Positions 2 through 26,087 of a stretch of 64,000 bases of DNA are shown piece after piece. A model generated the notes under the pieces. It was given only the letters and a program-made list of their open reading frames with translations, did no database searches and was not told the origin of the DNA. Numbering within the stretch: position 1 is the stretch's first letter; every line of letters begins with the position of its first letter. A program made the position numbers and the translations under genes. Location of the stretch: the NCBI RefSeq assembly GCF_018881905.1, contig NZ_JACVPM010000003.1, forward strand, positions 1 through 64,000. The letters run 5' to 3'. The stretch comes from Polynucleobacter sp. MG-27-Goln-C1 (GTDB lineage: Bacteria; Pseudomonadota; Gammaproteobacteria; Burkholderiales; Burkholderiaceae).

Positions 2-1420
2 ACGAATATAGCGCTTTCTTATTTAGAAAAAATTTCAACAGATCTTCGGAAGTATTTTGAGATGGGGAATAATAATTCCCCTGAACTTGAAAGAGTAATT
101 TCTAGGCTTGATAATTTTGAACATTTGCTAGTCCAGCTTCACGCAAAAGAGATACAAATGGATAGCCCTAGTCCAAACCTTAAAAAAAATAATTTTGGAA
201 TTGCATCGCGTTCAAAATGGAGAACTAGAGCGTTTAATTTTAGGAGAAATATTGTTAATGGAACAGCTGCCGAGCGGGGGAGGTACATAACATACTTATC
301 CAAAAGAATTTTATTTAGAATTGGGTTGATTGGAGATGGTGAAGATAGAAAAAAAATAATTTCGACTATATCGAATATTAAGAAAGCCGGATTAAAGGTG
401 GTGGTATTTCCAGCAACGGTTGATTATTCATACATGATGCAGCGACCTCAAGGTATGGCAGAGGCATTCGCTAATGCAGGCTTTATGGTGATATACGGTA
501 CGTTAAATAGGCAAACTGATAATGTCAAAATTCTTAAGGAGGTTTCAGAGAACTTCTATTTATTGAATGAAAACTACTTTTGCTATCTTGGTGAAATTTA
601 TAAGGCGGAAGAGATTATCTATTTTTGCATGTGGCCCAATAATATTAAACATGTAGATATACTGCCTCACTCATTCCTTATATACGACGTAATGGATGAG
701 CTTGAGCTTCTTGAATTAGATCCAGAGTCAAGACAGGAGGAGCATGAAAAATTATTAACTGCTGCCGATCTTGTTACAGTTTCATCTGATAATTTATTGA
801 AAATCATCCCAAATGAATTCAGACAAAAAGTTATATTGGTAGGTAATGGTGTATCAAGCGAGTTTATAAGTTTGGTGCAAAAAGGCTCAGACATTCCACA
901 TGAGTTGCAAAATCTGGAGGGTTCAACAATAGTTGGATACTATGGGGCAATCGCAGAGTGGATGGATTTTGAATTAATAGAGTTTTTACTGCAAAATAGC
1001 CCTGATATATGCTTCGTCTTCATAGGGCCAATTTCACATGATGTAAGCAGCAAGGTCAATTTTTTGGTTAATAAATACAAAAATATAGTTTTATTGCCGA
1101 AAAAAAATAGAAATGAATTAATTCCGTATTTAAATCGGTTCAATGTCTGTATTATCCCATTTGTAAAAAATAAAATTACAGACTCCGTGTCTCCAGTAAA
1201 ATTGTTTGAGTATTTTTCTGCTCAAAAACCAGTCGTTAGCACTGCTATTAATGAAGTATATAAATACAAAGAAATCTTTATAGCACAAGACTATAATCAA
1301 TTCTTAGATGGAGTTTATATCGCCGCAAATAGTAAAGAAAAAAATAAAAATTTATTGAATGAGGCCTTAGAAAATACCTGGGAATCAAAAGTGAGACAAA
1401 TCATTAAATTTATATGTTAA
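2..1420 (+). CDS. Glycosyltransferase, GT4/GT1-like, 5' end outside the window
   Basis: Probable retaining glycosyltransferase of the surface-polysaccharide locus. The reading frame is open to the left edge of the window. The first ATG (62) has no ribosome binding site, and the 20 codons before it continue a charged, helical, coiled-coil-like segment, so the true start lies upstream. The visible part has this N-terminal coil, a basic linker, then a GT-B core. An MQRPQ motif lies near residue 126 counted from the ATG. A late SPVKLFEYF segment with the donor-site glutamate lies near residue 385 and is typical of GT4 nucleotide-sugar binding. Sugar specificity cannot be read from sequence. Its stop overlaps the next gene by 7 bases. 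A related enzyme with the same QRP and DPVKIYEY motifs is at 14937-16028. Confidence 0.75.
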   Translation, partial: TNIALSYLEKISTDLRKYFEMGNNNSPELERVISRLDNFEHLLVQLHAKEIQMDSPSPNLKKNNFGIASRSKWRTRAFNFRRNIVNGTAAERGRYITYLSKRILFRIGLIGDGEDRKKIISTISNIKKAGLKVVVFPATVDYSYMMQRPQGMAEAFANAGFMVIYGTLNRQTDNVKILKEVSENFYLLNENYFCYLGEIYKAEEIIYFCMWPNNIKHVDILPHSFLIYDVMDELELLELDPESRQEEHEKLLTAADLVTVSSDNLLKIIPNEFRQKVILVGNGVSSEFISLVQKGSDIPHELQNLEGSTIVGYYGAIAEWMDFELIEFLLQNSPDICFVFIGPISHDVSSKVNFLVNKYKNIVLLPKKNRNELIPYLNRFNVCIIPFVKNKITDSVSPVKLFEYFSAQKPVVSTAINEVYKYKEIFIAQDYNQFLDGVYIAANSKEKNKNLLNEALENTWESKVRQIIKFIC

Positions 1421-3828
1421 ATAAAAAAATATTTTTTACCCCTTTGCTATTTTTATCAATAGCGTTTTGCTTTATTCAATACTGTAGAAGTATTACGATT
1501 AATAACTATTGGAATGAATATTTAATGTGGGCTGCAGGGTATGCGATAGCCAGTATTTTATTGAGCAAACTAACAAACATTTCAATACCAAAGCTAACTT
1601 TTTTTATAATATTAATTATCGGTGTAATGTCAGGTAATGGAGTAAATTTAGCGATTCTTTATTTTATTGCCGCTGCCTCAATCACATTTGGTTACAGAAT
1701 AAATCACTTTGTGTCTAGTAGCAACCCTGGAACTCTATATAATTTAATGGCTGGAATAGCATTACTGGCCGCCATGGTTGGTTTAAGTTCCCATTTTCCA
1801 ATTAATTATGCTGGCTTATATGTATCGGTATTAATAATTATCACTGCTGCCTCTTGGAGGCATTTCTCTGAAATTAATCAAATTTTCATTGGTTTTGTAA
1901 AAAATAATCCTGCCTTGGAAAAGTCAACGACAGAGTTGCTTTTAGAGGGGTTGATTGGCAGCCTGGCTATTGTCTATTTTTTAATTGCGTTAATGCCTGA
2001 GATCGGTTACGACGCATTGGTATCACATTTGGTAGTGCCCGAAAGGATGGCTTACTACCATAAATGGATTTATGACCCAAAAATTTTGATATGGTCTTTG
2101 GGTCCACTTAATGCAAACTGGGTTTTCACAATCCCTTACATGATTACAAATTCTGAAGTTGCAGTGCGCATTACTAGCTTAGGATTCTTAGCCATTATTT
2201 GTTATTTGATAAGGGATTTAGTGATCACCTTTAATAGATCAAAAAAAGAATATCTAATTGCAATTTTGCTTTTGTTGTCAACACCACTAACTCTCCTTGA
2301 GTCCTCAACTCTTTTTACAGATTTGATTTGGACGGCCTATCTTGTGGGTGGGGTGGTAATTTTATTTAAAATTTCACTGGACTTATCACTCCATAGCCAA
2401 AAATTTCTTTTTCTTGTCGGTTTATTTTTAGGCATGGCCATGGGGGTAAAGTTAACCACTCTTTTTATCCTTCCCACTATATTTTTACTATATCTATACA
2501 ACTTAAAAAAACATGGCTTTTTGATTTTAGAATTCTTTAAGTCAATTTTGTTTTTTTTACTGATTGGTTGTATTTCATATGCATACTCATATTGGGTAAC
2601 TGGAAATCCACTCTTTCCTTTTTACAATGAAATATTTAAATCACCCCTATATCCCCCTGAGAAATTTATTCATCCATTTAAGCCGGGGATTTCATGGGAT
2701 TTAATTAATCAAATTACATTCAATTCCAAAAATTTCATTGAGGGTGGAAATGGATCCCCTGGGTTTCAATGGGTCTTGCTATTTCTACCCTCATTCCTCT
2801 TAATTTTATTCCTTAGGAATAAATGGGTATTGGCGCTATTGTTATTCGCTTCGACTTTTATTCTGGGTGTCTTTAATACTGTTGGATATTTGCGTTATGT
2901 TTATCCGGCATTTGTTTTGCTCACAATATTCATCGCAATTGCAATTGGACAGTCAAATAAATTTGGAAGCACAGTAAAAATTATTTTTTCAGCATTAGTT
3001 TGCCTTGTATTTTCTTCAAACTTACTATTTTTTAAAGCTGCATCCGGATATAGCGATGTTTCGTTCCCAGTAATTTTTAATAACACCAAGCGAGAGGCCT
3101 ACATAGAGTCACGAGTACCAATGCGCAAGGCAGTTGCAATTGTTAATGAGCTTAATTTAAATAATTCTCCAGTTGCAATCTTATCAACTGCGCCGTACAT
3201 TGCTGGCCTGCATGCGATTCCACTGATTGGCTGGTGGTATAACTATAGTTTTTCAAAGGCTATATTTGAAGTAGAGAATAAGAAGCAATTAGCTCTTCTC
3301 TTTTCAAGGCATAAAATGGAATATCTATTGCTAGATGACTCATGGAGCACCCCCGAAAGACGTGAGTTAGTAAAAAATTTAACAAGTAGTGTTGAGAAAA
3401 TTGGAAATATTTCAGTCTTGAAGGTGGATAATGAAATAAATTTCCAATATGATTTGTTACAGAATATAAAATTCCCACAAGATTGGACGCTCGCAGATGG
3501 GGCTAAAGTTTTAGAGGGAAAATATTTAAAAGTTACAGTTAATTCCCCGGCGGTAACTATGGTGAGTGTTGGTGAGTTTGAGAAAGTTAAATACATAGCC
3601 GAAGCTAAATGTTCGGATCGGGTTACTGATGGTCGATTACAGGTAAATTGGATGGATTCCAAAGGTCAATTTATCTCAACGAGTATTACGACCTTTGAAT
3701 GTGAGCGGGATTTTAAAAGCTATTCAGTTGAAATGAGATCGCCTCCTAAATCTTCAAATGCGATAGTTTATGCAACATCACATTCGGAAATACCAGTAAT
3801 TTTCAAAAAAATTAGCGTATTGGAATGA
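1414..3828 (+). CDS. Large polytopic membrane protein, GT-C-like, with C-terminal periplasmic domain
   Basis: An 804-residue integral membrane protein. About the first 540 residues form roughly a dozen hydrophobic segments. The last 260 residues are soluble and mixed alpha/beta. An acidic luminal loop (PEIGYDALVSHLVVPERM, about residues 195-212) sits between early membrane segments, as in GT-C glycosyltransferases such as ArnT or PMT-like enzymes that use lipid-linked sugars. This suggests a glycosyltransferase acting on the periplasmic face, or a polymerase. I see no diagnostic family signature. It overlaps the preceding glycosyltransferase by 7 bases and is followed after 3 bases by a GT2 gene, so the three are probably co-transcribed. 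The gene is strongly AT-rich. Confidence 0.7.
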   Translation: MLNKKIFFTPLLFLSIAFCFIQYCRSITINNYWNEYLMWAAGYAIASILLSKLTNISIPKLTFFIILIIGVMSGNGVNLAILYFIAAASITFGYRINHFVSSSNPGTLYNLMAGIALLAAMVGLSSHFPINYAGLYVSVLIIITAASWRHFSEINQIFIGFVKNNPALEKSTTELLLEGLIGSLAIVYFLIALMPEIGYDALVSHLVVPERMAYYHKWIYDPKILIWSLGPLNANWVFTIPYMITNSEVAVRITSLGFLAIICYLIRDLVITFNRSKKEYLIAILLLLSTPLTLLESSTLFTDLIWTAYLVGGVVILFKISLDLSLHSQKFLFLVGLFLGMAMGVKLTTLFILPTIFLLYLYNLKKHGFLILEFFKSILFFLLIGCISYAYSYWVTGNPLFPFYNEIFKSPLYPPEKFIHPFKPGISWDLINQITFNSKNFIEGGNGSPGFQWVLLFLPSFLLILFLRNKWVLALLLFASTFILGVFNTVGYLRYVYPAFVLLTIFIAIAIGQSNKFGSTVKIIFSALVCLVFSSNLLFFKAASGYSDVSFPVIFNNTKREAYIESRVPMRKAVAIVNELNLNNSPVAILSTAPYIAGLHAIPLIGWWYNYSFSKAIFEVENKKQLALLFSRHKMEYLLLDDSWSTPERRELVKNLTSSVEKIGNISVLKVDNEINFQYDLLQNIKFPQDWTLADGAKVLEGKYLKVTVNSPAVTMVSVGEFEKVKYIAEAKCSDRVTDGRLQVNWMDSKGQFISTSITTFECERDFKSYSVEMRSPPKSSNAIVYATSHSEIPVIFKKISVLE

Positions 3829-3831
3829 TCA

Positions 3832-4797
3832 ATGATTAGTAATGGTAATGTCGCCGTCATTATTCCTGCATATAAGGTTTCAGCTTATATAGTTGATCTG
3901 CTTGATTGTCTGAATGATATGGGTTATCTGATTTATGTGGTTGATGATTGTTGTCCGGAATATTCTGGAAAATTGGTTGAGAGTAAATTCTGCCATTCTA
4001 AAAATGTTTCAGTGATTTACCACCGTGACAACCAGGGCGTTGGCGGTGCAGTAATGAGTGGATATAGGAAGGCGATTGCAGATGGAGCGGAAATATTAGT
4101 TAAGCTAGATGGCGATGGGCAAATGAATCCACGTTTAATTCCGCGCTTAATAAAACCAATAGAGATGGGTACTGCTGATTATGTTAAGGGCAATAGATTC
4201 TATAATTTAGAAAAATTAAAAATGATGCCTGTTAACAGAATTATTGGTAATGCGGCCCTCTCTTTCATAACAAAATTGTCCTCCGGATATTGGAATATTT
4301 ATGATCCTACGAATGGCTTTACCGCTATAGACAGTGCCTTAGCTAGAAATTTACCTTTTGAAAAAATTAGCAAAAGATACTTTTTTGAAAGTGATATGTT
4401 GTTTAGATTAAATACGGTTAGAGCCGTAGTGCAGGACATGCCTATGGACGCCCATTATGGCGATGAAAAAAGTAATATGAGGATAGGTAAAATCATTCCT
4501 GAATTTATGTATAAAAATCTCAGAAATCTTTTCAAGAGAATATTCTATAACTACTATCTAAGGGATATGACGATTGGATCATTGATGCTTCCTCTGGGTA
4601 CAGCAATGTTTTTATGGGGCTTTATATTTGGAATTCTAAAGTGGCAACTGGCAATGACTAGCGGATTAAACACCCCAATCGGCACTGTCATGATCTCCGT
4701 TCTACCTATTGTTCTGGGCATGCAATTTATTCTTGCGTTTTTAAACGAGGATATATCCTCAGTACCCGCTAAGCCAATAAGTGTCTTTTTGAAATAA
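3832..4797 (+). CDS. GT2 glycosyltransferase, dolichyl-phosphate-sugar synthase-like
   Basis: Family 2 glycosyltransferase of 321 residues. The N-terminal GT-A fold opens with VAVIIPAYK, has the nucleotide-binding VVDDCC strand near residue 38 and the metal-binding LDGDGQMNP segment near residue 97. Two hydrophobic segments at about 245-265 and 280-305 anchor it in the inner membrane. It resembles polyprenyl-phosphate glycosyltransferases that charge a lipid carrier with a sugar, which would supply the GT-C-like membrane protein immediately upstream. That pairing is an inference from order. A purine-rich GGAATGATC precedes the ATG. The 84 bases after its stop are the only sizeable gap in this block and may hold a promoter for the dideoxysugar genes. 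Confidence 0.8.
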   Translation: MISNGNVAVIIPAYKVSAYIVDLLDCLNDMGYLIYVVDDCCPEYSGKLVESKFCHSKNVSVIYHRDNQGVGGAVMSGYRKAIADGAEILVKLDGDGQMNPRLIPRLIKPIEMGTADYVKGNRFYNLEKLKMMPVNRIIGNAALSFITKLSSGYWNIYDPTNGFTAIDSALARNLPFEKISKRYFFESDMLFRLNTVRAVVQDMPMDAHYGDEKSNMRIGKIIPEFMYKNLRNLFKRIFYNYYLRDMTIGSLMLPLGTAMFLWGFIFGILKWQLAMTSGLNTPIGTVMISVLPIVLGMQFILAFLNEDISSVPAKPISVFLK

Positions 4798-9570: not shown

Positions 9571-9738
9571 CTAAAAAGCAGCAATGATCACGAATAATTT
9601 TTTAAAAAAAATCTCTAATGACTAAAATATTATTTGCTTGTTAGGCGAATTAATTTATAGATATCTGTAGGTTTTAGTGTTTTAAATGGAGAGTATTTAT
9701 TTCTAGGATCCATTAGTTCTTGACGAAGTTAACGGATC
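9571..9738. other. Convergent intergenic region
   Basis: About 170 AT-rich bases lie between the frameshifted reductase (+) and the GT2 gene (-). I see no ORF and no strong GC hairpin. Confidence 0.5.
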
Positions 9739-10674: not shown

Positions 10675-10675
10675 T

Positions 10676-12058: not shown

Positions 12059-12080
12059 GAGAAAAAAATTAGCAGAAAAA

Positions 12081-13661: not shown

Positions 13662-13784
13662 TTTTGATGCTGAATTAATTAAATCTTATTTGGAGTAATT
13701 TTTATCTTGGCTGTTGGCCAATTTCCAAATGAAATGATTGAAGAATATATCTGATTTGAAAATTAACGATGAGGTAAGGGTCGC

Positions 13785-14903: not shown

Positions 14904-14936
14904 TTGCTTATTGGAACCCAAGCTGAGTCGAATGTA

Positions 14937-16028: not shown

Positions 16029-16095
16029 ATTTTAAGGTAGTAGACGGATTTTGGTGCGTAAGCCTATGTTTGAAAAATAGATGAGTGGAGAATGA

Positions 16096-16890
16096 ATGAG
16101 GCGATTAATAAACTTGTTAAGCGATCCAATGATAAGAGGTATGGATATTGAGGGCGTAAGTCGCTTAGATGCACATCATAAAATGCTCAAAAAAAAACGC
16201 ATGTTGAGAGAGGTTTTTGATGAGTTTCACCACCTATTTAAGCAATTGAATTTGAAGTTTTTAAATGGCCATGGACTTGAGATAGAGCTTGGGTCCGGAG
16301 TTTCATTGATGAGGGATAAATACCCTGAGGTATTGGCAACAGATATTGTTAATGCTCCGCATCTCGATAGAGTTCTAAATGCCGAAAAGATGGACCTAGA
16401 AGATTGCTCAGTAAGAGTGCTGTACGGTCAGAATTGTTTCCATCACTTTCTGCATCCAGACAAATTCTTCGGGGAGTTAGAGCGTGTTCTAGTTCCTGGT
16501 GGCGGATTTATTATGCTTGATCCTTACCATGGTCCATTTGCTCAATTTTTGTTCAAGCGATTATTTAAAACAGAGGGATTTGATAAAAAATTTCCGTCTT
16601 GGGAAACTCCGCTATGTGCGCCAATGCACGGAGCGAACCAAGCATTGAGTTATATCGTATTCGAGAGGGATAGGGTTAAATTTGAACAAAAATATCCTTC
16701 GCTGAAAATTGTCCATAAGCAGACTCTTGGCAATTATTTAAAGTATCTATTGTCTGGGGGATTAAATTTTAGACAGATTCTTCCTGATAAATTGACGGGT
16801 ACGGTAAGCTTCCTTGAAAAAATATTAACCCCCTTTCAGTCTGTCTTAGCTTTGCATCATGTTGTTGTTATCCAAAAGCTAGAACGATGA
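16096..16890 (+). CDS. SAM-dependent methyltransferase, class I
   Basis: A 264-residue protein with a Methyltransferase_11-type core. LEIELGSGVSLM (residues 61-72) is motif I that binds SAM, ATDIVN follows the second strand, and ERVLVPGGGFIMLDPY near residue 130 is the post-core motif. The N-terminus is basic and helical. It may methylate a sugar or a lipid-linked intermediate; the acceptor is unknown. A TGGAGAATGA ribosome site precedes the ATG. The stop overlaps the GtrA gene start by ATGA, so it is coupled to the cassette that follows. Confidence 0.85.
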   Translation: MRRLINLLSDPMIRGMDIEGVSRLDAHHKMLKKKRMLREVFDEFHHLFKQLNLKFLNGHGLEIELGSGVSLMRDKYPEVLATDIVNAPHLDRVLNAEKMDLEDCSVRVLYGQNCFHHFLHPDKFFGELERVLVPGGGFIMLDPYHGPFAQFLFKRLFKTEGFDKKFPSWETPLCAPMHGANQALSYIVFERDRVKFEQKYPSLKIVHKQTLGNYLKYLLSGGLNFRQILPDKLTGTVSFLEKILTPFQSVLALHHVVVIQKLER

Positions 16891-17294
16891 CCTTTCTAAA
16901 ATATTTAGCGGTGCAGGTATTGGCTTATGTCATCGATATGGGGGGTTTTATATTAATCGTAAGTTTGACATTTATTAGTCCCATTGGTGCTAATGTCCTC
17001 TCGAAATTTTTTGCTGGCATCTTCGCATTTACTGTACAAAGAAAATTTACCTTTAAGATTCCAGCTAATTATCAAACGCGTAAACAGGCTGCACTCTACT
17101 TTTTAGTATTAATTATTAATATTCCAATTGCTAGTACAGTACTTTTTCTGGCGCTCTATCTAGTATCCGATGCTGTTTTAGCAAAATTTTTATCAGACAT
17201 AGCTTGTGTTGGGATCTCATATCTGCTGAGTAAGCACCTTATTTTTTCTAAAACCCATAGCACTGCTGATAATTTAGGATTTTTAAAGGGATGA
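16887..17294 (+). CDS. GtrA family membrane protein
   Basis: A 135-residue protein of four hydrophobic helices, matching the GtrA/DPMS3-type fold. The conserved FxxxRKFTF element appears as AFTVQRKFTFK near residue 50, and SYLLSKHLIF lies at the end. GtrA proteins are thought to flip or support polyprenyl-phosphate sugars together with GtrB-type GT2 enzymes, and two such GT2 genes are in this locus. ATGA overlaps join it to the genes on both sides. Confidence 0.85.
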   Translation: MTFLKYLAVQVLAYVIDMGGFILIVSLTFISPIGANVLSKFFAGIFAFTVQRKFTFKIPANYQTRKQAALYFLVLIINIPIASTVLFLALYLVSDAVLAKFLSDIACVGISYLLSKHLIFSKTHSTADNLGFLKG

Positions 17295-18574
17295 AGATAG
17301 CAGTTACTGGATCAACGGGTTATATAGGCAAAAGATTGTTGCTCGCCGCCTTAAAGAGGGGGCACCAAGTTATTTCCCTATCTCGAGTGCCAAGCTCAAC
17401 ATTCGCAACAAATTGGATTAAATATGATTTAGGATCCTACGAACCTCTAAATTTGCCTTTGGATGTTGATGCCATCGTTCATCTTGCTGCAAATACATCA
17501 TTTAATAGTGGATTAACCGAGCGTGAGGAAATTGATGCTGCCGCACGAGTCATAGATATTGCAAGAGCTAGAGGCATCAGGTGTATCTTTATATCGAGTC
17601 AAACCGCACGAAGTGATGCTCCTACCACCTACGGTAGGATTAAATTTCAAATTGAACAAATGGTGATTGACTCAGGTGGTTTTGTTATTAGGCCTGGACT
17701 AGTCTATGGCGGCCCTTCCAATGGCCTATATGGAGAGCTTGTGAGATTGGTCAAAAAGTTCCATTTTTTACCTTTGTTTTTGCCGGGCCCGCGAATTCAG
17801 CCAATTCATGTTGATGATCTGGTGATAGGTATTCTTAAGGTTGCAGAATGTTCGAATAACGCCATTAATTCTATTGTGATGCTTGGCAGTGTAAATTCAA
17901 TATCCTTTTCTTATTTTTTACGAAGTGTTGCGAGATATCGTTTGCGTGTATCAAGAATTTATATTCCCTTCCCTTCGATTATTATTCGCTATCTGGCAGG
18001 GATCTTTGAGAAAATTGGTGGCGGCCTAAACCGACTAAATTCCTTATTCAATCTAGTCGAGATGCGGACTGAAAATGATTTAAGTTTTCTCGATTTGAAT
18101 TTGAGGCCATTAGATTCTGGTTTAAATTGCTCTGGATCAAATAGGAGGCGAAAATTACTTCTTGAGGGACTTGCATTTTATTCATATATAGATGGTGCTA
18201 AAGCAAAAAATATAAACATACGTTATTACGTCAGAATTATTGAAAAGCTTCGTAATGCAATCGCGCTCGATCTTCCATTGTGGCCTAAAACATGGCCGCT
18301 CTGGATTACTCTTCTTGATAGAAAAAAAATAAAGAAATATCCATGGATTGAAGAATTTAAATGGAGGCTTAAGGCTACTACATTATTAGCCGAGGCAAGT
18401 ACGGATGGCGCTTTACATTTTATTGATCCAAAAGGTGGTGGGTTTATGCGTAGCCTTTTTGGAATTTTTGGAGCTTTATTATGTGAAATTTTGTTATTAA
18501 TATGCAAATTCCTGTTCGCCCCATTATTGCAGTTAATAATTTTTAGAAAACTTGAATCGAATCATGAGTTATGA
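17291..18574 (+). CDS. NAD-dependent epimerase/dehydratase family protein with long C-terminal extension
   Basis: A 427-residue protein. Residues 1-230 are an atypical extended SDR: TGSTGYIGKRLLLAAL at the N-terminus, VHLAANT, a TTYGRIKFQ catalytic YxxxK, RPGLVYGG, and the IQPIHVDDLV element seen in sugar and NDUFA9-like SDRs. The remaining 200 residues form no domain I recognise and end in a hydrophobic stretch (about 390-420) that could anchor it to the membrane. It starts in the GtrA stop (ATGA) and its stop overlaps the GMC gene start. Substrate unknown; oxidation or reduction of a lipid-linked sugar is an inference. Confidence 0.75.
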   Translation: MKIAVTGSTGYIGKRLLLAALKRGHQVISLSRVPSSTFATNWIKYDLGSYEPLNLPLDVDAIVHLAANTSFNSGLTEREEIDAAARVIDIARARGIRCIFISSQTARSDAPTTYGRIKFQIEQMVIDSGGFVIRPGLVYGGPSNGLYGELVRLVKKFHFLPLFLPGPRIQPIHVDDLVIGILKVAECSNNAINSIVMLGSVNSISFSYFLRSVARYRLRVSRIYIPFPSIIIRYLAGIFEKIGGGLNRLNSLFNLVEMRTENDLSFLDLNLRPLDSGLNCSGSNRRRKLLLEGLAFYSYIDGAKAKNINIRYYVRIIEKLRNAIALDLPLWPKTWPLWITLLDRKKIKKYPWIEEFKWRLKATTLLAEASTDGALHFIDPKGGGFMRSLFGIFGALLCEILLLICKFLFAPLLQLIIFRKLESNHEL

Positions 18575-20169
18575 ATCCTGATTTTGATGTCATTATTGTC
18601 GGTAGTGGACCCTCAGGAGTCTCAGCTGCATTTCCATTGCTTAACGCTGGCTTAAGAGTGTTAATGGTTGATGGTGGTGCGGCGCCAACTCAAACTTTTC
18701 CTATTGAGGACTTTATTTCTTGGCGTAGTAACGACAAATACCAGTTTAAGCGAATGGTGGGGGATGATTATCATGCGCTCAAGACGCATGATAGCGATTC
18801 TCCAAAGTTAAGAATTCCTTCGCTTGGATATGTTTTCGATCAATTTAAAGTAGTAAATAAAATTAATAGCGACGGTTTTGTGGCGGTAGGATCACTTGCT
18901 ACTGGTGGTCTTTCTAATGCATGGGGATGTGGGGTAGCTCAATATTCAAATGAAGAGTTGGAATCTTTTCCATTCCCAGCATCAGATATCAAGAAATCCT
19001 ATGAGGATGTAGTCGCCAGGATCGGTATTAGCGGGGGCTGTGATGATGATATGTCATCTTATTTTGGACTTGATCAGTGGAGCCAGCCGCCTATAGATTT
19101 GGACGACATTCATAAGCACTTTCTCAGTAGATTCCAAAAGTCAAGAGAGCACTTGCTGGGTCTTGGATTTAGACTTGGCCGTACGCGATTAGCGGTATTG
19201 AGTAAAGATTTTAAGGGTCGACAGGGCTGTAGTTTGACGGGAAATTGTTTGTGGGGTTGCTATAGAAAATCAATGTACTCCGCAAGCGATGAATTGCCAG
19301 TATTAATGAAGTTTAGTAACTTTAAATACATGCCAGGTTTTGTTGTTTCAGATCTATTCAATAAAAGTGATGACATTACTGGCATCAGAGGAAAAAATAT
19401 TTCTCAAAATTGTTATGAAGAAATTACAGCTTCAAAAATACTACTTGGGGCAGGTACTTTGGCTTCGACTAGATTGGCGCTGAAGTTGCTTGGGTATCTT
19501 GAATCATTTAATTTACTATCTTGCCCAACGGCTGCTTTTATGATGTGGATCCCTCGATATTTTGGTCAAATTAGAAAATCAACATTTGGCTCTGGCCAGC
19601 TAGCCTTTAATATTAAAACTGATAAGGGTGTTTCAGCCTATGGGGCCACCTTCCCAACTACCGCAATACCAGTTTCGGAATTTGTGACTCATATGCCGAT
19701 GGGTGTGAGGGCTAGTATAAGTTTTTTGAGAAACATACTAAGCTCCTGCGTTATTGGCAACCTTTTTTTGCCAGGCAGATTTGGGGGTGCAAAAGGTCAA
19801 TTAGATAAATTAGGGGAGCTTAACTTAAGTTACTCGAAGGATCCTTCGATAGACGATTCAATGATGGGAGTTGCTAAGGTTTTGCGTTCAAGCTATGCAA
19901 AGCTAGGAGGGTTTATATTGCCCGGAAGCTTTACTGTGGGGCGTCCAGGAGGAGATATCCATTACTCCGGAACTATGCCTATGAGTTCAGTACCAAATGT
20001 TGGTGAGACCAATCCAAATGGGGTGGTGATTGGCGCAAAAAATATTCACATTATTGATGGAGCTTGCTTGCCGCTGTTGTCAGAAAAGCCGCATACTTTG
20101 ACGATCATGGCAAATGCGGATCGTATTGGAAAAGTTGTGGCTAATGAATTGAGGAAAAGGGGTGCATAA
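18571..20169 (+). CDS. GMC-type FAD oxidoreductase
   Basis: A 532-residue flavoprotein of the glucose-methanol-choline oxidoreductase superfamily. It begins FDVIIVGSGPSGVSAAFPLL with the FAD-binding glycine motif, has GGLSNAWGCGVAQYS near residue 113 and GAGTLASTRLAL near 298. The C-terminal NPNGVVIGAKNIHIIDGACLP plus KPHTLTIMANADRIG is the GMC C-domain. It also has a QGCSLTGNCLWGC cysteine-rich stretch near 220 that is not general in GMC enzymes. It lies inside the polysaccharide operon with ATGA overlap, so a sugar alcohol or acyl substrate is plausible. It differs from the BetA-like GMC enzyme at 37566-39209. Confidence 0.8.
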   Translation: MNPDFDVIIVGSGPSGVSAAFPLLNAGLRVLMVDGGAAPTQTFPIEDFISWRSNDKYQFKRMVGDDYHALKTHDSDSPKLRIPSLGYVFDQFKVVNKINSDGFVAVGSLATGGLSNAWGCGVAQYSNEELESFPFPASDIKKSYEDVVARIGISGGCDDDMSSYFGLDQWSQPPIDLDDIHKHFLSRFQKSREHLLGLGFRLGRTRLAVLSKDFKGRQGCSLTGNCLWGCYRKSMYSASDELPVLMKFSNFKYMPGFVVSDLFNKSDDITGIRGKNISQNCYEEITASKILLGAGTLASTRLALKLLGYLESFNLLSCPTAAFMMWIPRYFGQIRKSTFGSGQLAFNIKTDKGVSAYGATFPTTAIPVSEFVTHMPMGVRASISFLRNILSSCVIGNLFLPGRFGGAKGQLDKLGELNLSYSKDPSIDDSMMGVAKVLRSSYAKLGGFILPGSFTVGRPGGDIHYSGTMPMSSVPNVGETNPNGVVIGAKNIHIIDGACLPLLSEKPHTLTIMANADRIGKVVANELRKRGA

Positions 20170-20226
20170 CGATCCCTTTGGTTGCAGTTAATAATTGGAG
20201 TATTTTGGTTTTCTTTTGGTGGGGGC

Positions 20227-21303
20227 ATGATGGGTTCAATAAAGTTAGAAAATTTTGATCATGACGGGCTTCAGGAGCAAATTGCTGTTGGTAAAACTGT
20301 TTATTCATCGCCAGAAGTTGTAGATTCGGACCACATTAGATGGAAGCACCTTAATGGCCCTTATGGGAAATCTATTGCAATCACCTTAAGGGATGGGAAG
20401 GGTATATTACTTGGACGCTCCTTTCTTCAGCCCAGAAAATTTAGGATTAGCAAAACCCTTTCTTGTAATGGAGCTTTGGTTACTGATTTAGTGATTGATC
20501 CACTTGCAAGAAATGCATCTACTCTAATAGGAATGACTCGTGCAATAACATCTCCTGCTGGAATTGAATTGGTGGCCCATACATCAAATGAAGTTAGTGA
20601 TTTGATTTATCAAAAATTATTTAAGTTTCCCGTTGCATGTAAATTAATGGCGTTGGGGCTGCCTTTATATTTTGCAAAAGTCCTGAAGCCGCACTTAAAA
20701 AACCTCAGAGCGCTTAATGTCATCGACTATTTATTTGCACCCTGGAGATGGGGTCTGATTGGTATCTCAAGTACTTTTGTAGCCCTAAGTGGGGTGGACT
20801 TCATGGCGCGCCCCATGGAGTCTGAGTCGCTAGAAGTGTTTGATGGGTTTCAGGAAATTTCTGGAAGCCATTTTGAAAGAAGTCTTGCATTTCATAGGTG
20901 GCGTTTTGGGGAGGGCCCTATTTTTAATGGTGAGATTAAGTGGATTAAATCTGCTGGAATATGCATTGGATGCGTTGTTTTTAAGCAGGTTGAAATAGGC
21001 GGGCTAAACGCATGCGTGCTAATGGATATTGTTATGCGCAGGAATTTAACTGGGTTGGAGAAAATGGCCATAAAGCTATTAGCGGTTAAATTTTCCCTTA
21101 AATTAACTAGTGATGTTTTATTTACTTTAGTTAATACTGATAATCCTGCATTAAAATGGCTTATAGGTTTTCCATTTATCGTTATTCCAGATCGGTTATT
21201 GCCTCACCCAACCCCAATTTTCATTCATTCCTCAGAGGAAATATACCCATCATCAAATCATAAAAGCATTTATTTAACGCTTGCAGATCTAGATTATTTT
21301 TAA
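20227..21303 (+). CDS. GNAT-like acyltransferase candidate
   Basis: A protein of about 358 residues. The first half looks like a GNAT/FemAB-type acyltransferase, with a VTDLVIDPLARNASTLIGMTR segment near residue 95 recalling the acyl-CoA binding strand and helix. A repeated HFERSLAFHRWRFGEGP motif begins the second half, and HIRWKHLNGPYG in the first half matches it in spacing. This suggests two tandem domains. No named family is certain. A TGGTGGGGGC ribosome site supports the ATG at 20227; a TTG at 20182 is unlikely. The acyl carrier protein gene follows, so transfer of an ACP-bound acyl group to an amino sugar is a reasonable hypothesis. Confidence 0.55.
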   Translation: MMGSIKLENFDHDGLQEQIAVGKTVYSSPEVVDSDHIRWKHLNGPYGKSIAITLRDGKGILLGRSFLQPRKFRISKTLSCNGALVTDLVIDPLARNASTLIGMTRAITSPAGIELVAHTSNEVSDLIYQKLFKFPVACKLMALGLPLYFAKVLKPHLKNLRALNVIDYLFAPWRWGLIGISSTFVALSGVDFMARPMESESLEVFDGFQEISGSHFERSLAFHRWRFGEGPIFNGEIKWIKSAGICIGCVVFKQVEIGGLNACVLMDIVMRRNLTGLEKMAIKLLAVKFSLKLTSDVLFTLVNTDNPALKWLIGFPFIVIPDRLLPHPTPIFIHSSEEIYPSSNHKSIYLTLADLDYF

Positions 21304-21330
21304 CAGCGCAACTATTGAATTGGAACAAAT

Positions 21331-21618
21331 ATGAAAAAATTGGCTCAGAGTATTGTGAGTGAGGCAATCATTGAGGTTAATCTTGATCAGGATCTCGATG
21401 GCAAGATAATAAATTCCCCAGAGATTTTATTATTAAATTCCCAAAGTAATGTTGATTCCTTGACTCTCGTTAGGTTGTTGATTGCGGTTGAGCGGTTAAT
21501 TGAAGAAAAAACTGGAAAATCTGTTGTGGTGGTTGATGAGTCTACATTTGAAGCTGAGGAAAGTCCATTTTCTACCGTTGGCACTCTGATGGCTCATGTT
21601 GAAAGATTGTTGATTTAA
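21331..21618 (+). CDS. Acyl carrier protein
   Basis: A 95-residue acidic helical protein. NVDSLTLVRLL (residues 40-50) contains the DSL motif, whose Ser43 would carry 4'-phosphopantetheine. The surrounding helices fit the ACP fold, although it is slightly longer than the fatty-acid ACP. It is not the housekeeping acpP, which normally sits in the fab operon. Here it lies between the GNAT-like gene and a FabG-like reductase. Its stop and the next start overlap as TAATG. It probably carries the acyl group built by the following genes. Confidence 0.85.
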   Translation: MKKLAQSIVSEAIIEVNLDQDLDGKIINSPEILLLNSQSNVDSLTLVRLLIAVERLIEEKTGKSVVVVDESTFEAEESPFSTVGTLMAHVERLLI

Positions 21619-22325
21619 TGCTGGGCTCAAATAACTCTCTGTTAGTAACTGGTTCTAGTCGCGGGCTCGGAATGTTATTGGCTGAAACATATTTAAGTAT
21701 GGGCATGAAAGTATTCGGCTGTTCCCGTAATGCTTCTACTATTGAGCATCAAAACTATCGGCACTTCGTGCTCGATATCTCTGATGAGGCAAGCATTATC
21801 TCTATGTTTAAAGAAATTTCTTTGCTCAAAATTAGGCTTGATTTAGTCATCAATAATGCGGGCATGACTCAATCTAGCTTAGGAATCTTAACGAGAGCTA
21901 AAGCTGCTAGCGAAATAATTAATACAAATATTTTAGGCACTTTTTTAATTACTCGCGAGGCGCTAAAGTTGATGCAGCGCCAACATTACGGGCGAATAGT
22001 AAATTTTTCATCAATTAATGTACCGCTGGGTAGTGTTGGTAGTTCAATTTACAACGCTAGTAAGGCGGCAATGGAGTCTATGGCTACAACCCTTTCCCGG
22101 GAGAATGCTAAGGCTGATATCACCATCAATACTATAGGACTTTCAGTAGTTGACAAGACGGGAATGTCGGATTCCTTGACCCCAAAAGCCCTTGCTGAAA
22201 AGCAGCGCCTATTAATAAAACCTGATCTTATAAAGGTTGAAGAAATTATTCATGCAATAAACTTCTTGGCCTCTCCTTTATCTAAAAATATTTGTGCTCA
22301 AACTATTTATTTTGGTGGTGCATGA
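21618..22325 (+). CDS. SDR oxidoreductase, FabG-like (3-oxoacyl-ACP reductase)
   Basis: A 235-residue classical SDR. The cofactor motif TGSSRGLG is at 11-18 and NNAG at 79-82. The catalytic Ser is in NFSS (131-132), with Tyr145 and Lys149 in YNASK. Next to an ACP and a FabH-like synthase, the likely job is NAD(P)H-dependent reduction of a 3-oxoacyl-ACP to 3-hydroxyacyl-ACP. Start and stop overlap both neighbours (TAATG and ATGA), showing tight coupling. Confidence 0.85.
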   Translation: MLGSNNSLLVTGSSRGLGMLLAETYLSMGMKVFGCSRNASTIEHQNYRHFVLDISDEASIISMFKEISLLKIRLDLVINNAGMTQSSLGILTRAKAASEIINTNILGTFLITREALKLMQRQHYGRIVNFSSINVPLGSVGSSIYNASKAAMESMATTLSRENAKADITINTIGLSVVDKTGMSDSLTPKALAEKQRLLIKPDLIKVEEIIHAINFLASPLSKNICAQTIYFGGA

Positions 22326-22957
22326 GTAATACTTATCAAGTTGCTGCGGTAGTTAATGGGGCTTGGAAGCAGAATTGCTATCTACTTACTAATGAAAAGC
22401 ATGAGCTGATCATTATTGATCCAGGAAGCAATGCAGGGGAAATTATTTCTCGCATTAACGATCTTGATGCAACTCCATTGGCAATATTGAATACTCATGC
22501 GCACTATGATCATATTGGAGCGGTTTCAGCTTTAGTCCAAAAATTCAGCATCCCCTTTTATTTGCATAAAAAAGATGAGGGGTTAATGAAGCAAGCCAAT
22601 TTATATAAAATTTTATTTGAGTCCAAGGATAGTATTGCAATCCCACTTTTTGATAAAGACTTGGCTACAGAGGAAAAAATATTTTTTATTGGGGATTTTA
22701 AGATTGAGATAATTCATACACCCGGCCATACTCCGGGGGGCGTTTGTATAGTGGCTGATAACAATATTTTTGGTGGTGATACATTGATGTATGGCGGACC
22801 AGGAAGCACTCATTTGCCTGGTGGGGATATTCGGGAGATGGAATCAAGTATGGATACTTTGCGCCAATTGCCTGGGGAGTTCTTGGTCTACCCGGGGCAT
22901 GGGCGGCCATTTACCTTAAATACTTTTTGGAGTAAGAACTTTGCTTCACAGTCTTGA
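22322..22957 (+). CDS. MBL-fold metallo-hydrolase, glyoxalase-II-like
   Basis: A 211-residue metallo-beta-lactamase-fold hydrolase. The metal-binding THAHYDHIGA motif is near residue 60, followed by HTPGHTPGG, GGDTLMYGG and the closing YPGHGRPFT. All metal ligands look intact. Glyoxalase-II-like members cleave thioesters, so within this ACP/ketosynthase cassette it may act as an editing or releasing thioesterase; this is an inference. I start it at 22322, where ATG overlaps the SDR stop (ATGA). The 3' end overlaps the ketosynthase by 17 bases. Confidence 0.8.
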   Translation: MSNTYQVAAVVNGAWKQNCYLLTNEKHELIIIDPGSNAGEIISRINDLDATPLAILNTHAHYDHIGAVSALVQKFSIPFYLHKKDEGLMKQANLYKILFESKDSIAIPLFDKDLATEEKIFFIGDFKIEIIHTPGHTPGGVCIVADNNIFGGDTLMYGGPGSTHLPGGDIREMESSMDTLRQLPGEFLVYPGHGRPFTLNTFWSKNFASQS

Positions 22958-23960
22958 TATCGGAATAGAGGGTGTGGAGTTTTGTTTGGGACAAAACTCA
23001 GTTTCTAATTCACAACTACAAGAAGAAAATCCATCTTGGGATATGTCAAAAACATTAGAAAGGTCAGGGGTAAAGTCTCGTCCTGTGGCCATCCCAGGAA
23101 CAACTGCGCTTGATTTGGCATATGAGGCGGCTAATAAGCTACTAAATCAATTGAAGTGTCCCTCAAGCGAGATTGACGCATTAATTTTTTGCACCCAAAC
23201 GCCAGACTATGTGCTGCCACCAAATTCATCTTTGCTGCATGGTCGATTAAATTTAGCTTCCAATGTAATGGCATTTGATATTAGCCATGCTTGCTCTGGT
23301 TTTATATATGGCCTTGGTATAGCTCGTAGTTTGGTTGCTAGTGGCACAGCAAAGAAAGTACTCTTGATCACTGCGGACACATACACTAGGTTGATTCACC
23401 CTGCCGATAGATCGATACGTCCACTTTTTGGTGATGGAGCGGCGGCCACTATAGTTTCTTCGGGCAATTTGGTTATGAAGATTAAGGATATGAGTTTTGG
23501 AACTGCGGGAAAAAAAGCCGATAGATTCATTGTCGAGGCGGGTGGCGCAAGAAATGAAGCCCCTATTTCTGAGGAAGTTATTCTAGATCGTAGCGGTAGA
23601 ATTACAAGTTCAAGGCATATTTCGATGGATGGTTTGGGGCTTTTAAGTTATTTCAACAATGTAATTCCTATATCAGTTTTGGGGCTTTTGGAAAAAAATG
23701 GTAAGAACGTCTCAGACGTATCCCTATTCTTATTTCACCAGGCTAGCCGACTTGCTTTGGAAGGGATTATGCGTAGTTTAAAAATCCCTGATAATAAAAT
23801 GATTATCGATATGGAGGAGACTGGAAATTTAGTCTCATCATCTATACCGGTATTACTTTCACGACTGCTTAAGGGTGGCGCTATTCCTGAAGGTGAGCCC
23901 GTCATTTTGTGTGGTTTTGGTGTTGGCTTATCTTGGGGAACTGCCCTGGTTGAATTTTAA
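22941..23960 (+). CDS. Beta-ketoacyl-ACP synthase III (FabH-like)
   Basis: A 339-residue thiolase-fold condensing enzyme. The catalytic triad is visible: Cys118 in SHACSGF, His266 in LFHQASR and Asn296 in ETGNLVSSS. IRPLFGDGAAATIV near residue 160 is the usual core. It would condense an acyl-CoA starter with malonyl-ACP to give a 3-oxoacyl-ACP. The start is a TTG at 22941 with GGAG at 22929-22932, overlapping the upstream gene. It differs from housekeeping fabH by context, so a dedicated short-chain pathway is likely. Confidence 0.9.
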   Translation: MLHSLDIGIEGVEFCLGQNSVSNSQLQEENPSWDMSKTLERSGVKSRPVAIPGTTALDLAYEAANKLLNQLKCPSSEIDALIFCTQTPDYVLPPNSSLLHGRLNLASNVMAFDISHACSGFIYGLGIARSLVASGTAKKVLLITADTYTRLIHPADRSIRPLFGDGAAATIVSSGNLVMKIKDMSFGTAGKKADRFIVEAGGARNEAPISEEVILDRSGRITSSRHISMDGLGLLSYFNNVIPISVLGLLEKNGKNVSDVSLFLFHQASRLALEGIMRSLKIPDNKMIIDMEETGNLVSSSIPVLLSRLLKGGAIPEGEPVILCGFGVGLSWGTALVEF

Positions 23961-23970
23961 GGAGTCTCAT

Positions 23971-25317
23971 GTGAGCCATATCAATTTTTTACTAGATAGA
24001 TTTTCTGCCGAGCCAAATAAAATTGCAGTGGTTCTTCGGGGAATCTCTATAAGTTATGGCACTCTTTCGCAAGAGGTATTTGATCAAATTGAATGGTTGG
24101 CTAGTAAAAATATTCAACCAGGTGATGCTGTTATTTTACGTGGAGATTATTCTCCTCTTGCTATTAGTTTGCTTTTGGCATTGATTGAAATGCGTTGCAT
24201 CTTAATTCCTCTGACTCCAGATGCTTTTAATACCCTGAGAGATTCTTTTGGTGAGGTTGCGCCTTCTTGGGTTATAGATGTGACTGGTTCTATCCCAATC
24301 CTAGAGCCCGTTGAAATATTTAATACCCCAACTTTGTATGAAATTATCAGACGCAGAAATGTTCCTGGATTAGTTCTCTTTACTTCGGGATCCTCAGGAA
24401 AACCAAAAGCAGTCGTTCATGATTTTTCAAAGTTGCTAGAAAAGTTTCATGTAGTTCGGCAGGCAATGATTACCTTAAATTTTCTTCTTTTTGATCATTG
24501 GGGTGGTTTAAATACCTTACTGCATTGCTTATCTAATCTTTGCCTTATTGTAGTTCCAGAGAGGCGTACTCCAGATCACATCTGCGAATTGATTGAGTGT
24601 TTCAAAATCGAGCTACTGCCCACAACCCCTAGTTTTTTAAATATGCTACTCATTTCAAAAGCATATATTGGGCGCAATTTAGACTCCCTGAAATTGATTA
24701 CATACGGGGCTGAGCCTATGCCAGAGTCGACTCTAAGAGGTGCAAGAAAAATATTTCCCAAAGTTGAATTCAGGCAGACATATGGAATGATTGAGCTGGG
24801 AGTAATGCGAACAAAGTCACGTTCCGCTGATTCGCTTTGGGTTAAGTTGGGGGGGGAGGGTTACTCAACTAGAGTGGTTGATGGAATATTGCAAATTCGA
24901 GCTGATGCAGCTATGTTGGGATATCTTAATTCAGATAGTCCTTTTACGGATGATGGTTATTTAATCACGGGCGATTTGGTTGAAACGGATGGGGAATGGT
25001 TTCGTATCTTAGGTAGACAATCTGACATTATTAATGTGGGCGGTCAAAAAGTATACCCGGCAGAAGTGGAAGCGATACTCCTTGAATGCCCAGGTGTGGC
25101 TGATGCTGTTGTTTATGGGGAATCCAATCCTATTTTAGGAAAGGTTGTGTGCGCTAATTTAATTCTGGATGTGCACGCTGAAGAATCTATTGTTCGACAA
25201 GCTCTGCGAGAATTATGCAAAGAAAAAATGCAAGCATATATGTCTCCTGTAAAAATTAAGTTTGTTCAGGAAATTGCTCAGACTAATAGGCTGAAGCGTT
25301 CTCGTGCCAAAGCTTAA
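23971..25317 (+). CDS. AMP-dependent acyl-CoA/acyl-ACP ligase
   Basis: A 448-residue ANL-superfamily enzyme that activates a carboxylic acid through an acyl-adenylate. LFTSGSSGKPKAVVHD is the phosphate-binding loop, YGMIELG the A5 motif, ITGDLVETDGEW the ATP ribose site and GRQSDIINVGGQKVYPAEVE the hinge and A8 region. The end, TNRLKRSR, could supply the A10 lysine. The start is a GTG at 23971 with a perfect AAGGAG at 23959-23964, six bases ahead. An ATG at 23969 is out of frame. It may load a free acid onto CoA or onto the ACP of this cassette. Confidence 0.88.
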   Translation: MSHINFLLDRFSAEPNKIAVVLRGISISYGTLSQEVFDQIEWLASKNIQPGDAVILRGDYSPLAISLLLALIEMRCILIPLTPDAFNTLRDSFGEVAPSWVIDVTGSIPILEPVEIFNTPTLYEIIRRRNVPGLVLFTSGSSGKPKAVVHDFSKLLEKFHVVRQAMITLNFLLFDHWGGLNTLLHCLSNLCLIVVPERRTPDHICELIECFKIELLPTTPSFLNMLLISKAYIGRNLDSLKLITYGAEPMPESTLRGARKIFPKVEFRQTYGMIELGVMRTKSRSADSLWVKLGGEGYSTRVVDGILQIRADAAMLGYLNSDSPFTDDGYLITGDLVETDGEWFRILGRQSDIINVGGQKVYPAEVEAILLECPGVADAVVYGESNPILGKVVCANLILDVHAEESIVRQALRELCKEKMQAYMSPVKIKFVQEIAQTNRLKRSRAKA

Positions 25318-25325
25318 TTATTTAT

Positions 25326-26087
25326 ATGATGTCTATAGCCCTTTTTCTATTTGCTCACCAAGATGATGAGTTCGGCGTATTTCAAAAGATTATCGATGAA
25401 CTTGCTGATGGACGAGAAGTTTATTGCGCATATTTAACAGACGGAGTATCGGTTGGCTGCTCTCCTAAAGTAAGAAATCTAGAGTCGATTACGGTGTTGA
25501 CAAAACTTGGTGTCCCTCGAAAAAATATTCTATTTGTCGGCGAGGAATTGATAATTCCTGATGGTAAGCTTGTGAATCATTTAAAAAAAGCAAAAGTATG
25601 GCTAACTAGTTGGCTGTCTGAGAATGCTCAAATTGAGAATATTTATCTTCCTGCATGGGAGGGCGGGCATCCAGATCATGACTCGTTGCATGCTGTTGGA
25701 GTTATAGTTACAAAGCAATTAAATTTGATAGATAAAGTATGGCAGTTCCCTTTATATAATGGTTATAAATGTAAAGGTCAATTTTTCCGCGTCCTTCTAA
25801 CATTGGCAAGTAATGGCGAAGTTTTCAATAGGAAAATAAGCTGGCTTAATCGCTGTCGATTCTTAAGTTTTATTTTGAATTACCCCTCCCAAGCTAGTAC
25901 TTGGGCTGGTCTCGCACCTTTTGTATTGATTCATTACCTGGTTTACGGAACCCAATCTTTGCAACGAGTTTCGTTTTCTCAAATTCAACTACCGCCACAT
26001 TTAGGGCGGCTGTACTATGAGAGACGAAAGTTCTGCACTTGGCAGGTGATGTCAGAGAGACTTCGGGGGGATTTATTGGTTTCATAG
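25326..26087 (+). CDS. PIG-L family deacetylase
   Basis: A 253-residue LmbE/PIG-L-type zinc deacetylase. HQDDE (residues 11-15) and HPDHD (about 118-122) give the metal and catalytic residues. Family members remove N-acetyl groups from GlcNAc-type sugars, including lipid-linked or nucleotide-bound ones. As the last gene of the cassette it could free an amino group that is then re-acylated with the acyl chain made upstream. That link is an inference. The start has ATG codons at 25326 and 25329. It is the last clear gene of the polysaccharide locus. Confidence 0.85.
   Translation: MMSIALFLFAHQDDEFGVFQKIIDELADGREVYCAYLTDGVSVGCSPKVRNLESITVLTKLGVPRKNILFVGEELIIPDGKLVNHLKKAKVWLTSWLSENAQIENIYLPAWEGGHPDHDSLHAVGVIVTKQLNLIDKVWQFPLYNGYKCKGQFFRVLLTLASNGEVFNRKISWLNRCRFLSFILNYPSQASTWAGLAPFVLIHYLVYGTQSLQRVSFSQIQLPPHLGRLYYERRKFCTWQVMSERLRGDLLVS

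Follow-up and report, generated by a model that had tools for sequence, protein, structure and literature searches.

Eleven adjacent genes and two more distant glycosyltransferase genes of Polynucleobacter sp. MG-27-Goln-C1 appear to encode a single pathway. On balance, we favour the view that this pathway takes an undecaprenyl-phosphate (Und-P)-linked amino sugar, swaps its N-acetyl group for a custom short acyl group, flips it out and attaches it to a surface polysaccharide; both the substrate sugar and the acyl chain are what we infer. The basis is gene content and gene order, the conservation of catalytic residues, co-occurrence in other genomes and slot replacement, together with folds that are predicted. 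It is also possible, and we advance this more tentatively, that a bacterial enzyme with the N-myristoyltransferase (NMT) fold and a catalytic C-terminal carboxylate N-acylates the just-deacetylated polyprenyl-phosphate sugar with acyl-ACP from its own mini-pathway, in an edit-then-export GtrA/ArnT branch whose redox, O-capping, deacetylation and acyl-supply modules would be swappable.

The window is the whole stretch of 64,000 nucleotides that was analysed. According to the ORF list and the Pfam and NCBIfam matches, all eleven gene types named in the original prediction are present as ORFs at 16096-26087, all on the plus strand, in the order MT-GtrA-SDR-GMC-GNAT-ACP-FabG-MBL-KASIII-ligase-PIG-L. 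The features are the following:

1414..3828, +, GT-C glycosyltransferase (PMT), predicted ArnT-like fold at model residues ~170-672
within 1414..3828, residues ~673-804, C-terminal beta-sandwich of the PMT in the model, probably carbohydrate-binding
3832..4797, +, GT2 polyprenyl-phosphate-sugar synthase (PF00535, 65 bits)
16096..16890, +, class I methyltransferase, MT (PF08241, 29 bits)
16887..17294, +, GtrA-family putative polyprenyl-P-sugar flippase (PF04138, 52.6 bits)
17291..18574, +, extended SDR with a C-terminal hydrophobic tail (PF01370, 45.8 bits)
18571..20169, +, GMC-type FAD oxidoreductase (PF05199, 26.4 bits, cut-off 24.6)
20230..21303, +, GNAT-like acyltransferase of predicted NMT fold (tandem GNAT; no Pfam family)
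21331..21618, +, dedicated acyl carrier protein, ACP (Ser43 in alignment A2; no Pfam match)
21618..22325, +, FabG-type 3-oxoacyl-ACP reductase (PF00106, 127.7 bits)
22322..22957, +, metallo-beta-lactamase-fold (MBL) hydrolase (PF00753, 102.6 bits)
22941..23960, +, FabH-like KASIII (PF08541, 88.9 bits; PF08545, 82 bits)
23971..25317, +, AMP-forming acyl-CoA/acyl-ACP ligase (PF00501, 102.2 bits; PF13193, 53.8 bits)
25326..26087, +, PIG-L-family de-N-acetylase (PF02585, 45.1 bits, cut-off 28.2)

The ORF caller had placed three starts too far upstream, and these were reset by homologue alignment to ATG 20230 for the GNAT-like protein (previously 20182), ATG 22322 for the MBL hydrolase and GTG 23971 for the ligase (previously 23875). 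With the start at GTG 23971, the ligase gene therefore does not overlap the KASIII gene; the gap between them is 10 bases in the window and 9 in L005 and L007. The genes had been described as joined mostly by overlaps, which holds for six of the ten junctions (1-17 bases, corrected starts) and fails at the ligase.

Five core gene types co-occur in five further bacterial genomes. The order of all 11 genes is identical in L005 and also in L007, save for two replaced slots, where a different small membrane protein stands for GtrA and a hexapeptide-repeat protein for the MT; because the order is kept in the one and nearly so in the other, the cassette is beyond chance. A GT2 gene is found in 6/6 loci and a PMT gene in 4/6; L007 has no more than a distant PMT homologue, and none was found in the L008 genome. 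The joint occurrence of ACP, KASIII, PIG-L and GMC genes, which had been suggested as a check, is seen in the full order of L005. GMC was not seen at L006 or L009, and ACP, MBL hydrolase and ligase are absent from L008, which is interrupted by a contig end, and from L009. No homologue of the cassette ACP was found in the whole L008 and L009 genomes; the core can thus do without a dedicated ACP.

The original prediction assigned acyl transfer to the GNAT-like protein. Context and fold support this assignment; however, the predicted fold matches N-myristoyltransferases over the whole chain, with two GNAT lobes in the NMT arrangement, and is predicted to differ from the ordinary single-GNAT or PseH type. 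Residue 356 of 358 in the model pairs with NMT chain residues 492, 451, 496 or 455, which we take to be the last residues of the matched NMTs, and the same C-terminal motif ends all 120 homologues listed (the best 120 of 129). The C-terminal carboxylate is a candidate for the base. Sequence identity to the NMT structures is 10-13%, no Pfam family matched at E up to 0.01, and a profile of alignment A1 (the window protein and 49 of 82 homologues), run against the sequences of solved structures, picked out no NMT even at E 1; by sequence, the protein appears to lie outside the NMT family. Could it nevertheless be a true bacterial NMT analogue that acylates a protein N-terminus, with the deacetylase and acyl genes serving another step? 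The whole-chain fold match would agree with this, but fold alone says nothing on substrate, the sequence comparisons speak against it, and sugar or lipid-sugar enzymes surround the gene in 6/6 loci, so that we regard it as very improbable.

As in eukaryotic NMT, then, an amide formed from an acyl thioester is expected and the C-termini coincide in the model; a review regards the C-terminal-carboxylate chemistry as a feature that NMT shares with no other member of the GNAT superfamily (PMC4964394). In contrast to the eukaryotic enzyme, the cassette protein is bacterial, has no detectable sequence similarity to it, is expected to act on a sugar amine and shares its cassette with an amino-sugar deacetylase and with acyl-ACP genes of its own. 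No hexapeptide family matched in 16096-26087, and the cassette does not fit a PglD-type N-acyltransferase. The GNAT proteins of L044 and L045 are not supported as NMT-fold homologues, the A1 profile scoring below 0 for both, and were used only as an acyltransferase adjoining the ligase. A weak GNAT-like match, G211 (E 5.5e-5, residues 10-109), was left out of all locus counts; its locus, L011, has no further cassette gene at the cut-off used.

An ACP, a KASIII and a 3-oxoacyl-ACP reductase stand together in this glycan locus, as in loci of the Vio and Wfp type. The catalytic residues named in advance are conserved: Ser43 of the ACP is invariant in 7/7 aligned sequences (four cassette ACPs and three from ligase loci; alignment A2), and Cys118, His266 and Asn296 of the KASIII are kept in 7/7 (six cassette loci and L043). 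The FabG scores 131.7 bits against TIGR01830, under that model's cut-off. In the MBL hydrolase, which is probably an acyl-ACP/CoA thioesterase, residues that we take to be metal ligands are invariant in 5/5. Ligase scores among 398 genomes reach 302-387 bits in five genomes and fall to 110 in the next, a clear gap. An SDR lies within 1.5 kb of the ligase in four of the five close relatives (L013, L015, L016 and L017; not L014) and also in 16 of the next 24 hits given loci (L018-L041), which weakens ligase-FabG adjacency as a special signature; the signature rests instead on the score gap and, tentatively, on the acyltransferase context.

A separate housekeeping-type fab cluster is present elsewhere in the genome (KASIII at C1:81486-81755, FabG, and ACP at C1:83654), and the cassette KASIII and FabG are ~28% identical to their counterparts there. 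Therefore, a housekeeping role of the cassette ACP and KASIII, which had been named beforehand as grounds for abandoning the idea, was not seen, and we reject it. In metabolite pathways, too, KASIII, FabG, ACP, ligase, MBL hydrolase and FAD oxidoreductase are found together, and SolJ, from the biosynthesis of solanimycin, comes third among the NCBIfam matches of the MBL hydrolase, at 65.9 bits, which falls far short of the cut-off of 350. The product might accordingly be an acylated small molecule or lipid, a specialised metabolite whose genes lie in a polysaccharide island incidentally. We consider this improbable, given the distribution of GT2 and PMT across the loci and a deacetylase in 6/6; moreover, the Pfam matches in the cassette include no elongating KASII or dehydratase family.

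The deacetylase slot is occupied by unrelated enzyme families across the loci. The original idea of a dedicated acyl-ACP mini-pathway and a deacetylase is supported. In the window, the slot holds the sole PIG-L match in the genome; the motifs AHQDDE and HPDH/HHDH (H[PH]DH), presumably metal-binding, occur in 4/4 sequences, and the PF02585 score points to a PIG-L/LmbE de-N-acetylase. No solved structure matched it at E up to 0.1. No aminotransferase was found in 16096-26087 by Pfam. A DegT-family gene at 6734-8077 lies inside a CDP-sugar block and may, we assume, be a dehydrase.

The GT2 and PMT genes (1414-4797) lie outside the region considered in the original prediction, which missed them and the three-component character. 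In the window, they are 11 kb away from the remaining cassette genes; therefore, their link to the cassette rests on other genomes. The GT2 protein matches the solved structures of a dolichol-phosphate-mannose synthase (5mlz, E 7.8e-12) and ArnC (9hwj, E 1.1e-4), has two C-terminal hydrophobic segments in 6/6 sequences and, judged by sequence, fits a polyprenyl-phosphate-sugar synthase of the GT-A type whose C-terminus carries membrane segments. The PMT (alignment A7: the window protein, three locus proteins and 20 of 30 homologues found) has the GT-C fold in its model, and the window GtrA is a candidate for the small flippase; neither L006 nor L009 showed a GtrA nearby. Together with the cassette, these three look like a three-component transmembrane glycosylation system (GtrA/GtrB/GT-C). 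Because the C-terminal domain of the PMT has many beta-sandwich matches at similar Z (12.6-13.9), acceptor binding by this domain is a guess. The Arn and Francisella lipid A pathways (ArnC-ArnD-ArnE/F-ArnT; FlmF-NaxD-FlmK) comprise an Und-P-sugar synthase, a lipid-linked-sugar deacylase, a flippase and an ArnT-fold transferase. These pathways leave the amine free, whereas the cassette would re-acylate it via a dedicated system.

The SDR adjoins the GMC gene in 5/5 loci having both (window, L005, L007, L008 and L049); neither was seen at the L006 or L009 loci, and no SDR match was found across these two whole genomes. The pair is separable from the cassette. It combines an FAD oxidoreductase with an SDR, as in the DprE1/DprE2 epimerase pair; the oxidoreductase itself is not a DprE1-type flavoprotein, a family distinct from GMC, and matched GMC/FAD families instead. 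It scores 37.8 bits against TIGR04542, far under the cut-off of 400, and its matches to solved structures are confined to the FAD-binding N-terminus. The roles of SDR and GMC in the pathway are inferred. The C-terminal hydrophobic segment of the SDR exceeds the threshold in three of four sequences (window, L007 and L008; not L005).

That tail bears on the stage at which the sugar is edited. PIG-L might deacetylate UDP-HexNAc and the GNAT-like protein acylate it before GT2 loads the finished sugar on undecaprenyl phosphate. We think this rather unlikely: the constant partner of the cassette is a lipid-sugar synthase, the SDR is mostly tailed, an aminotransferase is lacking in 16096-26087, and NaxD is a precedent for deacetylating a polyprenyl-P sugar. 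On the other side, the GNAT-like, PIG-L and GMC proteins of the window have no hydrophobic segment over threshold, and the known acyl-ACP systems are proposed to acylate nucleotide sugars, WfpG acting on UDP-Qui2NAc4NH2 (PMC6519341) and the Pseudomonas syringae system on dTDP-viosamine (PMC3927599), which runs counter to a lipid-linked stage. De-N-acetylation and N-acylation probably take place on the undecaprenyl-phosphate sugar.

According to the favoured pathway, GT2 would put HexNAc on undecaprenyl phosphate, and PIG-L would take off the acetyl group inside the cell. The ligase and KASIII would provide the primer and lengthen it, on the dedicated ACP, into 3-oxoacyl-ACP; reduction by FabG would give 3-hydroxyacyl-ACP, and the MBL hydrolase may remove wrong or stalled acyl-ACP. 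Amide formation would then fall to the NMT-fold protein, whose C-terminal carboxylate would probably act as the base. SDR and GMC may oxidise and re-reduce one sugar hydroxyl, an epimerisation comparable to that by DprE1/DprE2, and the methyltransferase may cap one hydroxyl. Finally, GtrA would flip the lipid-linked sugar and the ArnT-like GT-C enzyme would transfer it, its C-terminal domain perhaps binding the acceptor.

Both halves of this scheme are already known separately, and what would be new is their joining, with an unusual transferase. The combination had been called unfamiliar. No description of the whole was found in the open-access literature, searched also by halves, an absence that is weak evidence; its parts are published, as amino-sugar acylation by ACP, KASIII and reductase (PMC3927599, PMC6519341) and as ACP, FabG and AMP-ligase (PMC7874193). 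The P. syringae viosamine island (vioS KASIII, vioR reductase, acp, vioB, vioM) shares the ACP, KASIII, reductase and methyltransferase and a proposed 3-hydroxybutyryl-type N-acyl amino sugar; however, its amine arises via an aminotransferase on a dTDP-sugar, and the seven-gene table of that source has no deacetylase, ligase, MBL hydrolase, GMC/SDR, GtrA or ArnT-like enzyme (PMC3927599). VioB, named there a dTDP-viosamine acetyltransferase, is set beside the GNAT-like protein by description only. The Flavobacterium psychrophilum O-antigen genes wfpC-wfpG likewise encode an ACP, 3-ketoacyl-ACP synthases, a reductase and an acyltransferase, with 3,5-dihydroxyhexanoyl predicted on an amino sugar, but the acyltransferase is of PglD type, its predicted substrate comes from PglE/PglF, and the available text describes no deacetylase or three-component export (PMC6519341). 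Aeromonas group II flagellar glycosylation islands have an ACP, a 3-oxoacyl-ACP reductase and an AMP-dependent synthetase beside glycosyltransferases, and the available part of the report makes no mention of KASIII, PIG-L, GMC or an NMT-fold protein (PMC7874193). Three-component periplasmic systems (GtrA/GtrB/Gtr; GT136 pentofuranose) share the polyprenyl-P-sugar synthase, the flippase (GtrA in the Gtr type, MATE-family in GT136) and the GT-C enzyme, which carries a C-terminal CBM in GT136; in Araf systems, DprE1/E2 homologues epimerise the lipid-linked sugar by redox. Unlike the proposed pathway, these systems, as far as the available portions describe them, neither de-N-acetylate nor N-acylate the lipid-linked donor (PMC11127046, PMC8035078).

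If our reading is true, dedicated acyl-ACP amino-sugar pathways and lipid-linked three-component glycosylation would be united in one modular cassette, and unusual N-acyl sugars would be predicted on the surfaces of the bacteria that bear it. Furthermore, the NMT architecture, and perhaps the C-terminal-carboxylate chemistry too, would reach a bacterial enzyme family without annotation, and at least 120 unnamed GNAT-like proteins would gain a testable reaction.

All eleven plus-strand genes listed in the original prediction were confirmed by open reading frames and Pfam or NCBIfam matches in 16096-26087 of the window, which belongs to a 2.0 Mb genome, and homologue alignments moved the starts of the GNAT-like, MBL (metallo-beta-lactamase-fold hydrolase) and ligase genes to 20230, 22322 and 23971, respectively. 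The predicted active sites, Ser43 of the ACP and Cys118/His266/Asn296 of the KASIII, are each invariant in seven of seven aligned sequences. The THxHxDH motif, His137, Asp154 and His194 of the MBL, presumably metal ligands, are invariant in 5/5 sequences, and the PIG-L motifs AHQDDE and H-x-D-H were found in 4/4. No Pfam family matched the cassette ACP or the GNAT-like protein, a predicted N-myristoyltransferase (NMT)-fold acyltransferase, and the Pfam ACP search of the whole genome detected three other ACPs and missed this one.

Used as a query, the GNAT-like protein matched 82 proteins, and a profile search found 129 (details for 120). Where sources name any of the 82, or of the best 120 of the 129, they call it a hypothetical or uncharacterized protein, and none of these carries a precomputed Pfam domain. 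The gene is scarce: only its own copy was found among 101 relatives, and only that copy and one weak partial match in 300 genomes of the order. A genome-collection scan yielded five loci, listed with PMT for the GT-C, ArnT-like transferase, GT2 for the polyprenyl-phosphate-sugar synthase and MT for methyltransferase.

Gene orders of the five loci
L005, betaproteobacterium MOLA814: PMT-GT2-MT-GtrA-SDR-GMC-GNAT-ACP-FabG-MBL-KASIII-ligase-PIG-L
L006, Variovorax gossypii: PMT-GT2-GNAT-ACP-FabG-MBL-KASIII-ligase-PIG-L
L007, Polynucleobacter hallstattensis: GT2-hexapeptide protein-small membrane protein-SDR-GMC-GNAT-ACP-FabG-MBL-KASIII-ligase-PIG-L
L008, alphaproteobacterial MAG, contig end: KASIII-FabG-type SDR-methyltransferase-GNAT-GT2-MT-GtrA (partial match)-SDR-GMC-polysaccharide deacetylase
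L009, Omnitrophica MAG: PMT-GT2-radical SAM-KASIII-FabG-type SDR-methyltransferase-GNAT-polysaccharide deacetylase

Common to all six loci, the window included, are GT2, KASIII, a FabG-type reductase (distant in L008 and L009, 24-26% identity), the GNAT-like protein and a deacetylase. The strongest sign that N-acyl removal would belong to the pathway is this deacetylase slot, kept throughout with PIG-L in four loci and PF01522 in two. The original interpretation is partly supported, with deacetylation a probable pathway step, and is extended here; it missed PMT and GT2.

In the window, these two lie 11 kb upstream of the other cassette genes, and the conserved cassette extends past 16096-26087; a CDP-sugar-type block and further glycan genes lie between.

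Features of the window outside 16096-26087
1414-3828: PMT homologue
3832-4797: GT2 homologue
4882-9482: glucose-1-phosphate cytidylyltransferase-like, CDP-glucose 4,6-dehydratase-like, DegT-family, epimerase and SDR genes, a set of CDP-6-deoxysugar type
9739-12058, minus strand, inverted within the island: GT2-like protein whose C-terminus looks hydrophobic by eye, and a PF01593 protein (amine-oxidoreductase family) that by eye resembles UDP-galactopyranose mutase
30797-32515, minus strand: protein presumably of sulfite-reductase type (by eye)

PMT has close homologues in the L005, L006 and L009 genomes and a distant one in that of L007, and was not found in that of L008. In L007, the methyltransferase slot is taken by a hexapeptide-repeat protein and the GtrA slot by a small membrane protein with a single Pfam match, which falls under the cut-off. 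L009, and L008 with its contig edge, lack ACP, MBL and ligase, so a general ACP or CoA may serve instead in these two. The same two loci carry a small methyltransferase between the FabG-type SDR and GNAT-like genes (L008 1913-2629, PrmA/MTS-type by Pfam; L009 8911-9651, alike by eye). The L008 GMC gene (7292-8900) is split into three fragments that differ in reading frame, and the GtrA of this locus is matched only in part, reflecting decay or assembly error.

A housekeeping role for the cassette ACP and KASIII was rejected: the second of two genomic KASIII copies, at C1:81486, forms a separate cluster with an ACP at C1:83654 and a FabG located between the two, and the cassette KASIII and FabG are ~28% identical to their counterparts there. 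PIG-L has a single match in the whole genome. This genome has another specialised acyl cluster (L051, G000:C1:312000-331000, about 8800-16000), presumably aryl-polyene-like, with two ACPs (PF00550) and genes that by eye resemble those for a ketosynthase, an acyltransferase, an AMP-ligase and a GT2.

Among 398 genomes of the phylum, its own included, five others hold ligases with 41-44% identity (302-387 bits), the next match scoring 110 bits. FabG and an acyltransferase occur in all five ligase regions, which supports a putative acyl supply to a transferase.

Acyltransferases near the five ligases
L042: hexapeptide
L043: GNAT PF13302, about 6 kb from the ligase
L044: GNAT PF00583
L045: weak PF13527 match
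L046: GNAT PF13302, adjacent to the ligase

The L043 locus (9252-17271), from a different organism, encodes a more complete dedicated acyl pathway, with two ACPs, a MaoC-SDR fusion ORF, MBL, KASIII, GNAT and a protein we take to be FkbH-like. As a control, an SDR lies within 1.5 kb of the ligase in 4/5 close relatives versus 16/24 next matches with loci, so ligase and FabG alone are a common pairing. ACP, FabG and AMP-synthetase have already been described in Aeromonas islands (PMC7874193).

SDR and GMC are adjacent in the window, L005, L007, L008 and L049 (G477, 2978-5837). Neither was seen at the L006 or L009 loci, SDR had no match in either whole genome, and no acyl genes were found in the 16 kb examined around the L049 pair, whose neighbours resemble polysaccharide genes by eye. 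The putative sugar-redox module is therefore separable from the acylation module.

G+C is 39-41% from 16 to 26 kb and 43-49% beyond 28 kb, as expected for an exchanged island. The 30797-32515 protein, 94% identical to its P. hallstattensis counterpart, marks the host as probably a Polynucleobacter, yet the GNAT-like proteins of the two share 43%; the distance from this gene to the cassette start is about 14 kb there versus about 5 kb here. Such a pattern fits cassette replacement at a single surface-polysaccharide locus.

We know of no bacterial NMT-fold N-acyltransferase in such a gene context, and none was found in the open-access literature searched. The parts of the predicted pathway are known separately, the predicted NMT-fold transferase in this context excepted, and the logic of the cassette is new in combination.
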